Positions 5,235-62,293 of a stretch of 64,000 nucleotides of DNA are shown piece by piece. The notes beneath the pieces are model-generated. The model was given only the letters and a program-made list of their open reading frames with translations, was not told the DNA's origin and did no database searches. Made by a program: the position numbers and the translations under genes. The DNA is from Paenibacillus borealis (GTDB taxonomy: Bacteria > Bacillota > Bacilli > Paenibacillales > Paenibacillaceae): assembly GCF_000758665.1 (NCBI RefSeq), contig NZ_CP009285.1:6200001-6264000 (forward strand). Direction: 5' to 3'. Position 1 is the stretch's first letter. The number at the start of each line of letters is the position of its first letter.

Positions 5235-6128
5235 TTATTGGTCTTTGTGGAAGCCCAAATCCCGCAGTACGCGGTCCTGATTGCGCCAGTCTTTTTTCAC
5301 TTTTACCCATAGTTCCAGAAAAATCTTCGAACCCAGCAGGTTCTCAATATCCGTCCGCGCACGCCGTCCGACTTCTTTCAGCAGGGCGCCCTGCTTGCCG
5401 ATAATGATCCCCTTCTGGGAATCGCGCTCCACAAAAATAACGGCCGAAATATGCACTACGCCATTAGGTTCCACACTCATGTCCTCAATCGCCACTGCAA
5501 TGGAGTGTGGTACTTCTTCGCGGGTCAGATGCAGAATCTTCTCACGGATCAGCTCCGCACAGACGAACTGCTCCGGATGATCGGTAATCTGGTCGTCCGG
5601 GTAATACTGCGGGCCTTCCGGCAGATATTTCTGTACCTGCTCCAGCAGCGTATTGACATTGCTGCCCATTTTGGCAGAAATCGGCACAATCTCGGCGAAC
5701 TCATGCAGCTTGTTGTATTCGGTAATCATCGGAAGCAGCGCTTCCGGCTCGATCTTGTCAATCTTGTTCATTACGAGAATGACCGGTGTCTTGATGGAGT
5801 TCAGCTGTTCCGCGATATAACGGTCACCGCCGCCCATCCCCTCTGAAGCATCAACCAGGAACAATACAGCCTCCACTTCATGCAGGGTGCTCATCGCCGT
5901 CTGGTTCATGTAATCGCCCAGCTTGGATTGTCTTTTATGGATACCCGGTGTGTCCAGGAATACGATCTGTGAATTATTGGCGGTATATACCCCGTGAATT
6001 TTGTTTCTGGTCGTCTGAGGCTTGTCCGACATAATGGCGATCTTCTGGCCGATCACCTGGTTCATGAGTGTCGATTTGCCTACGTTCGGTCTGCCGATAA
6101 TGGCGACAAACCCTGATTTGAATTTCAT
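5235..6128 (-). CDS. era: GTPase Era
   Basis: Essential GTPase that assists 16S rRNA maturation and assembly of the small ribosomal subunit. The 297-residue protein has G1 GRPNVGKST (residues 12-20), G3 DTPG, G4 NKID, and a C-terminal KH RNA-binding domain with [15 protein letters not shown]. The ATG at 6128 follows AGGAGG with standard spacing. It lies upstream of yqzL and recO, and is separated from cdd by 545 bases rich in repeats, so era-yqzL-recO is probably its own unit in this genome. Confidence 0.98.
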
Positions 6129-6234
6129 ATAATCCTCCTATTTGTCTTACAACTTGGTCAAAAGCGTTCATAACATTTTTAGATCAATCTGGAAACCTTG
6201 ATACAAGGTCAAAAGCGTTTCGATCCCCCTAATT

Positions 6235-6358
6235 CCCCCTTCGCCAAGGGGGACCCCAAGGGCCCCGGCCCTCTGGACACCCGGAACTGGCGTGGGCTCA
6301 GCGTCCGGTGCATTGAAGAGGGAATTAGAGCATGAGCGCTTACGTTCCCTGCGGGAAC
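6235..6358. repeat. GC-rich hairpin segment in the cdd-era gap
   Basis: The 545-base gap between cdd and era has no convincing gene. This part contains a perfect hairpin CCCCCTT-CGCC-AAGGGGG (6235-6252), a run of GGGCCCCGGCCC-type bases and a second hairpin GTTCCCTGCGGGAAC (6344-6358). An open frame across 6209-6451 on the minus strand has no ribosome site and no recognisable product. The segment looks like a compact intergenic element; no second copy was seen here. Confidence 0.4.
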
Positions 6359-6436
6359 ACGCTTTACTGCGGCGCGGAAAAGACTGGTTACTTTAACAAC
6401 AAAAACCCATACTAAAACCCTCGAAAACAAACTTAA

Positions 6437-6615
6437 TTGTATTTTGTACACTTATTCTGTTTAGAATCAGAACCTTTACAGGTTTAATTGTATTTGATAC
6501 AACTATTTCCTGAATTAGAGGCTATTTTCGGACTAAACTGCAAATATAGTTGTACTTTTTGCAGTTATATCGAAGTTTAGCTGAGTTAGCGGGCTTTTAA
6601 TTGTACAAAATACAA
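6437..6615. repeat. Four-box palindromic element, copy 1 (spacing 51-62-51)
   Basis: Four 15-bp boxes based on TTGTA-N5-TACAA start at 6437, 6488, 6550 and 6601. The second (TTGTATTTGATACAA) and fourth (TTGTACAAAATACAA) have perfect 5-bp arms. The first (TTGTATTTTGTACAC) and third (TTGTACTTTTTGCAG) are degraded in the right arm. Box starts are 51, 62 and 51 bases apart, exactly as in the copy at 47340-47518. Sequence between boxes is AT-rich. Located between cdd and era. Confidence 0.85.
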
Positions 6616-6673: not shown

Positions 6674-7093
6674 CTACTCCGGAGCCTGCCCCTGCTCCAG
6701 ATCCGAAGGACCAAAAGCGCCGGGGAGCAGGTCGCGCACGGTAGTCTCCACGATGTCGCCCTTCAGGTTGCCGAGGATTACCGGCATATCGGGGCCGCAC
6801 AGCTCAACCATCACCTGGCGGCAGACGCCGCAAGGCGATACAGGGCCGTCCGTATCCGCGACTACAGCGATAGCCCGGAAGGTACCCGGCTTATGCCCGT
6901 CCGCAATCGCGCGGAACATAGCGGTCCGTTCCCCGCAGTTGGTCGGGCCGTAAGCAGCATTCTCAATATTACAGCCGTGGTGAACATTCCCGTCCTGGTC
7001 CAGCAGTGCAGCGCCGACCCCGAAACGAGAATAAGGTATATATGCATTGACTCTTGCCTTGATCGCTTCCTGAAGAAGTAGAGCAGAATCCAT
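6674..7093 (-). CDS. cdd: Cytidine deaminase
   Basis: Deaminates cytidine and deoxycytidine to uridine and deoxyuridine in pyrimidine salvage. The 139-residue protein has the tetrameric zinc-enzyme layout: TNCGERTA gives zinc ligand C53 and catalytic E55, and PCGVC gives ligands C88 and C91. The start at the ATG at 7093 (MDSALLLQEAIKARV) is fixed by a perfect AGGAGG six bases upstream (7105-7100); the longer open frame to 7132 runs into repeat DNA. It follows dgkA in the conserved ybeY-dgkA-cdd-era order but is separated from it by about 270 bases of repeat-like sequence. Confidence 0.97.
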   Translation of the reverse strand: MDSALLLQEAIKARVNAYIPYSRFGVGAALLDQDGNVHHGCNIENAAYGPTNCGERTAMFRAIADGHKPGTFRAIAVVADTDGPVSPCGVCRQVMVELCGPDMPVILGNLKGDIVETTVRDLLPGAFGPSDLEQGQAPE

Positions 7094-7099
7094 AGTTGT

Positions 7100-7300
7100 C
7101 CTCCTGAAAGTTTTATTGAGCATTCTCTTCATTGAATTTTCTTCGAAATAAAACTCACTTCGTAAGCATGGACCTAGTTTTGTGAGTATACACTGCTTCG
7201 TTTATTCTTCGCACAAAATTCGCTTCGTAGGCATACACCGCATCGATTATTCTTCGTACATAACCCGCCACTTAAGCATGGCCCGGTTTTGCAGTTCTAA
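7100..7300. repeat. Imperfect repeats upstream of cdd ending in its ribosome site
   Basis: Units built around TTCTTCG...CTTCGTA(A/G)GCAT begin near 7139, 7205 and 7250. On the minus strand the element ends with AAAACTTTCAGGAGG, so its last bases are the Shine-Dalgarno of cdd. A related element with the same end, CAAAACTTTCAGGAGG, precedes prmA (46525-46650). No gene is seen in this 270-base gap. Confidence 0.55.
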
Positions 7301-23397: not shown

Positions 23398-23566
23398 CTG
23401 CATGAAATACAACATTTTCCTCATTATATCGATCCTAATCCAGAATTGTTGTATAAAAGGCAGCATTTCTGCTTCTACAAGCGGATTAGCAGGACAATTC
23501 TTGTATTTCGTACAACAATCTTTCGAATAGTCATGAATATAAGAATTCAAGTTGGATAATGTACAA
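23398..23566. repeat. Four-box palindromic element, copy 2 (spacing 51-52-51)
   Basis: Boxes start at 23398 (CTGCATGAAATACAA), 23449 (TTGTATAAAAGGCAG), 23501 (TTGTATTTCGTACAA, perfect arms) and 23552 (TTGGATAATGTACAA), 51, 52 and 51 bases apart. The sequence between boxes (ATCC...AGAATTGTTGTATAAAA, AGCGG.TTAGCAGGA) is clearly homologous to the copy at 62124-62293. A minus-strand open frame over it (23299-23550) is not a credible gene. Confidence 0.85.
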
Positions 23567-32160: not shown

Positions 32161-32440
32161 ATCAGCAGAGTCACTCCTCTGCTGATTCCAGCTGAATTGC
32201 AGGGCAACACTCAGCGCGATTCCTCTGCTTAGTTCATGATCCGCCGGCCTAGGAAGCGGACTGAAATTCCGTTATATGAGCAGATCAGGCGGATTCGCCG
32301 GGCAAACAGACTCAGATTCCGCTAAGTGACCAGTCAGAGCTCATATGGAATCCAGCCAGCAACATAACGGAATCCCAGTCCGCTTAAGCCCCATTCTGAG
32401 GTTTTTTGGAGAAATAGAGGTTTCTCAGTCCGCTTCACTC
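32161..32440. repeat. Intergenic repeat cluster of GCGGACTGA-ATTCCG units
   Basis: Units resembling AGCGGACTGAAATTCCGTTA occur at 32255 and 32305 (50 bases apart, the second AGACTCAGATTCCGCTA). An inverted copy, CATAACGGAATCCCAGTCCG, is at 32363-32388, and a partial inverted copy, TTTCTCAGTCCGCTTCA, at 32421-32437. A weaker unit is near 32211. A hairpin TCAGCAGAG/CTCTGCTGA opens the cluster. This is a different family from the TTGTA boxes. Confidence 0.65.
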
Positions 32441-47339: not shown

Positions 47340-47518
47340 TTGTATTATGTACAATTAAAAACAGCGAAAAGAGATGCTTGCCTCATATAACTGTATTCTG
47401 TACAACTAAATCTTCCCAAATGGCGAGAACCCGTCTACACAGCTCTTTTTAATTGTACGAAATACAACTAAACGGATAATCGCTGGATAATCAGACGTTC
47501 TAGTTGTACAAAGTGCAA
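47340..47518. repeat. Four-box palindromic element, copy 3 (spacing 51-62-51)
   Basis: Boxes at 47340 (TTGTATTATGTACAA), 47391 (CTGTATTCTGTACAA), 47453 (TTGTACGAAATACAA) and 47504 (TTGTACAAAGTGCAA), 51, 62 and 51 bases apart, identical spacing to the copy at 6437-6615. Each is flanked by TTAA- or CTAA-type bases. It lies in the 399-base gap between tag and the SLH phosphatase gene, which also holds a terminator at 47617 and no other gene. Confidence 0.88.
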
Positions 47519-62123: not shown

Positions 62124-62293
62124 CTGCACATAATACAACATTCCCTTCTTAATATCAGCCTAAATCCAGAATTGTTGTATAAAAAGCAGGATTTCACCTT
62201 TTTCAAGCGGCTTAGCAGGATTATTCTTGCATTTCATACAACAATCCGCCCGGGCACCCGGCTATCTATGAACCCAAGTTGCAAAACGTACAA
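62124..62293. repeat. Four-box palindromic element, copy 4 (spacing 51-52-52)
   Basis: Boxes at 62124 (CTGCACATAATACAA), 62175 (TTGTATAAAAAGCAG), 62227 (TTGCATTTCATACAA) and 62279 (TTGCAAAACGTACAA). Sequence between boxes is clearly related to the copy at 23398-23566 (shared TAAATCCAGAATTGTTGTAT-like and AGCGG.TTAGCAGGA stretches). It lies in the 571-base gap between the subtilase and dnaJ, which holds no gene apart from two terminators. Confidence 0.87.

Follow-up and report, generated by a model that had tools for sequence, protein, structure and literature searches.

The chromosome of Paenibacillus borealis carries many dispersed arrays in which four palindromic boxes stand at nearly fixed distances from one another, and arrays with almost the same geometry but other box sequences occur in the same genome and in its relatives. 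We give a probability of roughly 0.55 to the reading that these arrays are copies of a dispersed element made of four sites for protein dimers at a fixed distance, probably helically phased, many copies of which are kept for DNA binding. The window analysed here is the stretch of 64,000 nucleotides at G000:C1:6200001-6264000, G000 being this genome, with a chromosome of 8,156,808 bases.

The array at the centre of the original prediction (B1, 6437..6615, no strand assigned) lies between cdd (cytidine deaminase; 6674-7132, minus strand) and era (GTPase; 5235-6128, minus strand), and starts 58 nt past the cdd stop codon. Its four boxes, of the form YTGYA-N5-TRCAR, begin at 6437, 6488, 6550 and 6601, and the steps of 51, 62 and 51 bases proved exact on recheck; the boxes depart from the pattern at 1, 0, 2 and 0 of the ten specified bases, respectively, and their extended arms read TARYTGYA/TRCARYTA. 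A second copy with identical spacings and differing linkers had been reported at 47340, and this array (B2, 47340..47518, again with no strand assigned; boxes at 47340, 47391, 47453 and 47504) does have steps of exactly 51-62-51; in the better of the two orientations it agrees with B1 at 33% of linker bases and 92.5% of specified box bases. The window contains 12 boxes with at most one mismatch, whereas 100 shuffles averaged 0.67, and exact boxes number 245 genome-wide against 8 for the pattern read backwards. Beyond the two arrays first described, which we call family B, the window holds two sister arrays of family A on the plus strand, one at 23398..23566 (boxes at 23398, 23449, 23501 and 23552, steps 51-52-51) with arms like ATTGTTGTA/TACAACAAT and one at 62124..62293 (boxes at 62124, 62175, 62227 and 62279, steps 51-52-52), as well as a plus-strand array of other boxes, family D, at 32257..32432 (CGGACTGAGATTCCG-type boxes at 32257, 32307, 32368 and 32418, steps 50-61-50).

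Further copies with this spacing, for which a search had been proposed, were found. Arrays were counted in 61 stretches of G000 (60 evenly placed stretches of 20 kb and the window; 1.264 Mb), with a tolerance of one base per step. With the score set at 32 of 40 or higher, there were 15 family B arrays against none in reversed sequence, 12 of them at exactly 51-62-51 and three with one step off by one base, and 30 family A arrays near 51-52-52, again against none; this threshold leaves out 3 of 18 family B and 2 of 32 family A arrays. Lowering the score to a loose 26 gave 58 against 4 reversed for family B and 52 against 9 for family A. Scaled by length, the genome would hold roughly 100 B and 190 A arrays, about 300 together. 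When no spacing was assumed, the only distances between paired boxes with at least three cases in the first 464 kb were 51, 52, 62 and their sums, which made up 85 of 108 pairs (control, 7 pairs). Exactly four boxes were present in 28 of 49 clusters, and 17 of the other 21 consisted of four strong boxes plus one or two weak ones. Of the 64 strict B boxes found in 1.46 Mb, all but 4 had a partner at an array distance by a loose criterion (control, 2 hits in total). Isolated hits amounted to 1 of 9 for family D, 0 of 4 for A, 0 of 1 for family F and 0 of 5 for a looser F form; for B', a variant of B, they were 7 of 17, all within open reading frames (control, 2). Boxes thus occur almost only in fours. 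One locus, L060:15839-16191, has seven boxes at 62-51-61-51-62-51, seemingly two B-type arrays back to back. Neither the chromosome position nor the strand of the arrays showed a clear trend.

The alternative raised originally, a dispersed element with functional boxes, is supported by 30 family A copies taken with 350-base flanks, which align across the array and show little similarity outside it, so that the copies end sharply in unrelated surroundings. Intergenic and genic copies were counted as had been proposed, with simple open reading frames as gene calls: all 15 of the 15 family B arrays lie outside called frames, and so do 20 of 31 family A arrays. The frames that the other 11 A arrays overlap are mostly of 92-132 amino acids; one is of 387 amino acids with its first start inside the array, and one overlap is of 8 bases. 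After frames overlapping arrays were dropped, two flanking genes could be assigned to 43 of 45 arrays, 17 pairs being convergent, 2 divergent and 24 codirectional, a distribution that departs from that of the space between called frames (chi-square 15.8, p = 0.0004). Array flanks on the 3' side of a gene (within 800 nt) numbered 58 and those on the 5' side (no limit) 29 (p = 0.0025). A simple detector found terminators in 8 of 58 array flanks and 9 of 59 controls, no excess. We scanned 30 flanking proteins, 24 from genes next to B arrays and 6 from genes next to A arrays, and 25 of them match a Pfam family; these are mostly enzymes and transporters, including those of cbiC, cbiD, era and cdd, together with an AraC-type response regulator, a TetR-type regulator and a helix-hairpin-helix protein, and none is of a transposase family, while the other five match no family. 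At L021:14576-14754 a B array sits between the codirectional genes cbiC and cbiD, probably within one cobalamin operon.

The arms of family B follow TARYTGYA-N5-TRCARYTA, and in most half-sites of B' the outer pair is CT...AG. Judged by eye from the box centres, the boxes of B are ordered F F R R and those of A R R F F. Among 65 oriented B arrays, information per position was 1.46 bits in the arms, 0.96 in the centres and 0.45 in the linkers; since only arrays scoring 35 or more of 40 for their boxes had been picked, the arm value is partly built in. The covariation analysis left out 19 of the 84 unique B arrays, whose spacing was other than 51-62-51 or whose flanks were short. In these 65 arrays no positive covariation was seen between the two arms of one box at variable core positions. 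The outer dinucleotide covaries in all 16 of the 16 left-right half-site pairings, a pattern that we interpret as marking subfamilies. For core positions in different boxes, some left-right pairs exceeded shuffles (z up to 3.4) and others fell below them (z down to -3.7), and these mixed signs may likewise be subfamily structure. Because the arms of one box do not covary, hairpins are unlikely, and from palindromic, non-covarying sites we infer that the boxes are read by protein dimers. Neither a binding protein, nor a transposase partner, nor a phenotype was found in this analysis.

The boxes may all face the same side of the helix, as had been claimed: five turns in 51 bases and six in 62 (51/5, 62/6) fit a helical repeat of 10.2-10.3 bp. 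With 10.5 bp per turn, box four would be about 0.4 turn off box one. Steps of 50-52 and 61-63 bases would be about five and six turns at 10.2-10.4 bp per turn, and the dyads could then share one face.

The spacing is not confined to one box sequence. We searched 2.06 Mb of G000, G040 and G058 for any four similar words in the order F F R R, at any repeat distance from 30 to 100, and obtained 55 loci, of which 27 were at distance 51, 8 at 50 and 20 spread over thirteen other values; shuffled sequence of 40 of the stretches gave none. Of the 20 loci at other distances, 16 have a distance divisible by three and could be repeats within coding sequence; since 51 is divisible by three as well, the distance of 51 alone cannot exclude coding repeats. 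The loci at 51 and 50 sort into B with B', D, F, E and one A-like locus. Family D (CGGACTGAGATTCCG) had 13 arrays against none in the control, 8 of them at 50-62-50. Family F (TAAGTGGA type) had 13 hits against none in the control, 8 being true F by eye once five offset copies or B arrays were dropped. B, D and F have the middle distance of 62 in common, and, judged by eye, the half-sites of these three families are in the same register. In two intergenic regions, families face one another across genomes: at 6262124 G000 has a family A array and G040 a D array, and at 6290889 G000 has a B'-like array and G040 a D array. Family E is a 51-bp tandem repeat with the GC-rich palindrome AGGGGCA-N4-TGCCCCT, which at L152:12008-12430, L064:1860-2028, L072:1638-1806 and L167:3192-3513 is near-perfect, in 4 to at least 9 copies, with the same period as in the arrays. 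An 81-bp repeat at L073:3928 gave many hits in the geometry search and is probably a coding repeat.

The orthologous place of B1 was followed across species with era as the anchor; era was sought in 100 genomes of the genus, the 30 best loci were used (86-100% identity, G000 included), and 29 were readable, G076 being left out since no cdd end was read. With at most one base tolerated per step, an array lies 49-169 nt past the cdd stop in 25 of the 29 genomes; 20 of the 25 are spaced exactly 51-62-51, and the other five differ by a single base at one to three of the steps. Sixteen are of a TA type and nine of a CT type. In G039 box four is broken, in G058 a collapsed remnant has box 1 fused to box 3, and in G026, G025 and G073 nothing reached threshold. 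The linkers of the G000 array agree at 0.376-0.881 with those of 11 other TA-type cdd arrays of exact spacing, and at 0.267-0.446 (mean 0.336, overlapping in part with the TA-type orthologues) with those of the 11 other B arrays of G000. For the 12 TA-type arrays compared, the linkers thus show descent. Agreement with eight exact CT-type arrays is 0.347-0.406, and between TA and CT linkers 0.374, or 0.337 when flipped; because of linker values of only 0.347-0.406, descent of the CT type from the TA type is not established. Among themselves, the 11 other B arrays of G000 have a mean linker identity of 0.473 and a maximum of 0.83, a likeness that points to fairly recent amplification.

It had been proposed to align copies and see whether boxes are more conserved than linkers, and they are: between G000, G040 and G080 and seven distant genomes, in arrays picked by box score, identity is 0.716 in the core arms, 0.958 in the outer dinucleotide, 0.645 in the centres and 0.460 in the linkers, for which 0.265 is expected by composition. 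Transitions account for 77% of core-arm changes in 14 TA arrays (including two second arrays lying further from cdd) and 90% in 8 CT arrays, against 39% and 42% in the linkers; as the picking score tolerates purine-purine and pyrimidine-pyrimidine swaps, both the arm conservation and the transition excess are partly built in. The simplest reading of the TA-type cdd array is vertical descent with constraint on arms and spacing. The view that the arrangement is selected gains from its recurrence, from arms and spacing being kept while linkers drift and from a spacing common to different box families, whereas the part that draws on arm conservation is weakened by the inflation that picking by box score brings. 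We also considered coevolution of the boxes within a genome and do not claim it: in their arms, the 11 G000 paralogues resemble the cdd array of G000 (mean 0.884) more closely than 10 of 11 TA orthologues do, but the paralogues were picked by box score, and the correlation across 22 genomes was 0.20 (p = 0.36).

Other arrays in and near the window have mixed fates. B2 and an array at 6316562 are in the same place in G000, G058 and G040, while an array at 6268431 has been shortened in both G058 and G040. The 23398 array is present in G040 and occurs in G058 with an insertion in box 4; in this G058 orthologue (L154-L163) the box is split by well over 1 kb of what looks like an insertion sequence. 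The 62124 array was not found at that place in G058 or G040, and near the syntenic position of the 32257 array there are similar D arrays in G058 (L160:12304) and G040 (L175:3034). Arrays are lost or broken often enough (the cdd-era array in G058, G026, G025, G073 and G039, the 6268431 array in G058 and G040) that no single one is essential.

The search of other Paenibacillus genomes, suggested at the outset, found arrays widely. At E ≤0.001, models built on arrays with 51-62-51-type spacing hit 59 of 100 genomes of the genus for family B, 37 for A and 74 for D (G000 included in each); at most 26-27 candidates per genome were scored, with both strands counted, so the hits are not copy numbers, and some genomes have only one weak hit. 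Family B was found in 58 of 148 genomes and 13 of 19 genera of the taxonomic family, and in 41 of 119 genomes and 13 of 34 genera of the order, 20 of the 41 belonging to other families. In the class, at E ≤0.0001, 9 of 200 genomes had hits, of which seven belong to the same family as G000 and two, with one or two weak hits, lie outside it, so that model hits nearly stop at the order level. Among 25 loci from eight distant genomes, 12 are spaced exactly 51-62-51 and 24 fall within two bases per step, the loci having been picked by a model derived from arrays so spaced. From genus to genus their half-sites vary, examples being TTGACTGCA, TTAGTTGGA and CTAACTGCA. One family A array had no plasmid or phage match, in a collection from which records near G000 may be absent.

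On the reading that we favour, each array would be one discrete DNA element of about 180-187 bp with four dyad-symmetric sites for protein dimers. With the sites about 5, 6 and 5 helical turns apart, four dimers would be brought onto one face of the DNA and could join in one complex that wraps, bridges or synapses it; a multi-dimer complex wrapping, bridging or pairing DNA is the most likely form, and it may organise the chromosome, insulate genes or move the element. The elements would have spread through the chromosome as dispersed non-coding units, settling mostly downstream of genes, and many settled elements would then have been retained for DNA binding. The recognised sequence would have switched several times (families A, B, B', D and F) with the geometry nearly constant, which is expected if related DNA-binding proteins shift in specificity yet assemble into one type of complex. 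From these patterns we infer that proteins bind the boxes, lie on one face and cooperate, and that the arrays serve to structure the chromosome or to regulate; a spacing common to several box sets suggests that a protein complex reads the geometry. A broader proposal can be put forward only tentatively: the arrays may belong to an order-wide superfamily of sites coded by geometry, in which related DNA-binding proteins, each with its own sequences, build the same four-dimer complex on very many elements per genome, the 5-6-5 turn spacing being conserved and the sequence interchangeable, with a nucleoid-organising or regulatory role that has no described equivalent. If geometry is selected while sequence changes, the arrays would be a natural experiment on how DNA encodes protein spacing; they would also point to a probably abundant, undescribed family of DNA-binding proteins in the order of Paenibacillus, and would account for some of the intergenic repeats in these bacteria.

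The main rival is a plain miniature transposon. On this account, which we regard as possible but rather doubtful, the arrays are non-autonomous elements (MITEs) and nothing more, the boxes being transposase sites, two per end, the spacing a need of the transposase and persistence the outcome of continual renewal. The discrete unit with sharp ends in unrelated flanks (the 30 family A copies), the inverted ends that the order F F R R provides, the strong differences between species of the genus and the alikeness of G000 B arrays in their linkers (mean 0.473) all agree with it, as do the two places where an A or B'-like array of G000 faces a D array in G040 and the two types of cdd array, one of which may have replaced the other. 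Against it stands the TA-type cdd array, which is vertically inherited with arms and spacing intact. A middle distance of 62 in B, D and F would not be expected from unrelated internal deletions, and no transposase was found, either as a family among the 30 flanking proteins (five of them without any family) or as a Y1 enzyme in G000. The terminal boxes are mutually inverted, yet each box is itself palindromic. Paired sites examined for an empty insertion point showed deletions or other sequence and no clean empty site.

We consider two further accounts very improbable. If the element acted as RNA, every box would fold as a hairpin within the 3' untranslated region of a transcript and serve to terminate or protect it, as the palindromic boxes and the excess of arrays on the 3' side of genes (58 against 29) might suggest, and the mixed covariation signals leave some room for pairing between different boxes; but the arms of one box lack positive covariation, C-A mismatches arise on either strand, separate hairpins need no constant linker length with drifting sequence, and Rfam gave 0 matches in the window at the gathering threshold. 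The spacing might instead be a by-product of tandem duplication of a unit of about 51 bp, with no selection on distance. In its favour are family E, a near-perfect 51-bp tandem repeat, and two arrays filed under family A, L018:5341 and L061:5272, in which one box is repeated four times almost directly. In B and D, on the other hand, the boxes on the two sides of the centre are inverted relative to one another, the middle step is about 62 and no linker copies another, and the distances outlast linker divergence.

The original prediction knew of no described element of this form, and our literature search, judged by titles and abstract openings, likewise found no description of these arrays among the papers listed. 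Dispersed chromosomal repeats are known in Bacilli from the bcr repeats of Bacillus cereus; these are structured or mobile and to our knowledge lack a four-dyad design, a distinction made by description only. Like REP, BIME and REPIN sequences, the arrays are palindromes scattered between genes in many copies, arranged in pairs or groups and falling into several sequence groups per genome; unlike them, they consist of four sites at a kept spacing. Membership in this class was considered and rejected on the tag, on a hairpin with compensatory change and on the Y1 transposase: by eye, the REP tag GTAG/CGTC is absent from the invariant columns of 12 aligned B arrays and from the consensus of 65, and the Y1 (RAYT) transposase family PF01797 had 0 matches in G000; the positive control found it in 5 of 14 known genomes. 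A survey of GTAG/CGTC repeats describes variable distances, mostly of 20-100 bp, in a main text in which the word Paenibacillus does not appear (PMC3733652). MITEs, including Correia elements with IHF sites, are described as short non-coding dispersed units able to carry a site for a nucleoid protein (PMC10969869). The arrays are likewise short, non-coding and dispersed, but differ in that four evenly placed dyads are their main content, in the vertical persistence of the TA-type cdd array and in that no partner transposase was found.

A separate GC-rich element lies just upstream of era (window 6186-6400, in the sense of the minus strand) and is strongly conserved in 11 aligned species. It has a tandem duplicate in G040, and in the long stretches examined its full length occurs only beside era, with parts elsewhere. 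Its exact 37-base core was located in 36 stretches from named Paenibacillus records, some species contributing more than one, and the family B model matches 20 of the 36 stretches around it.
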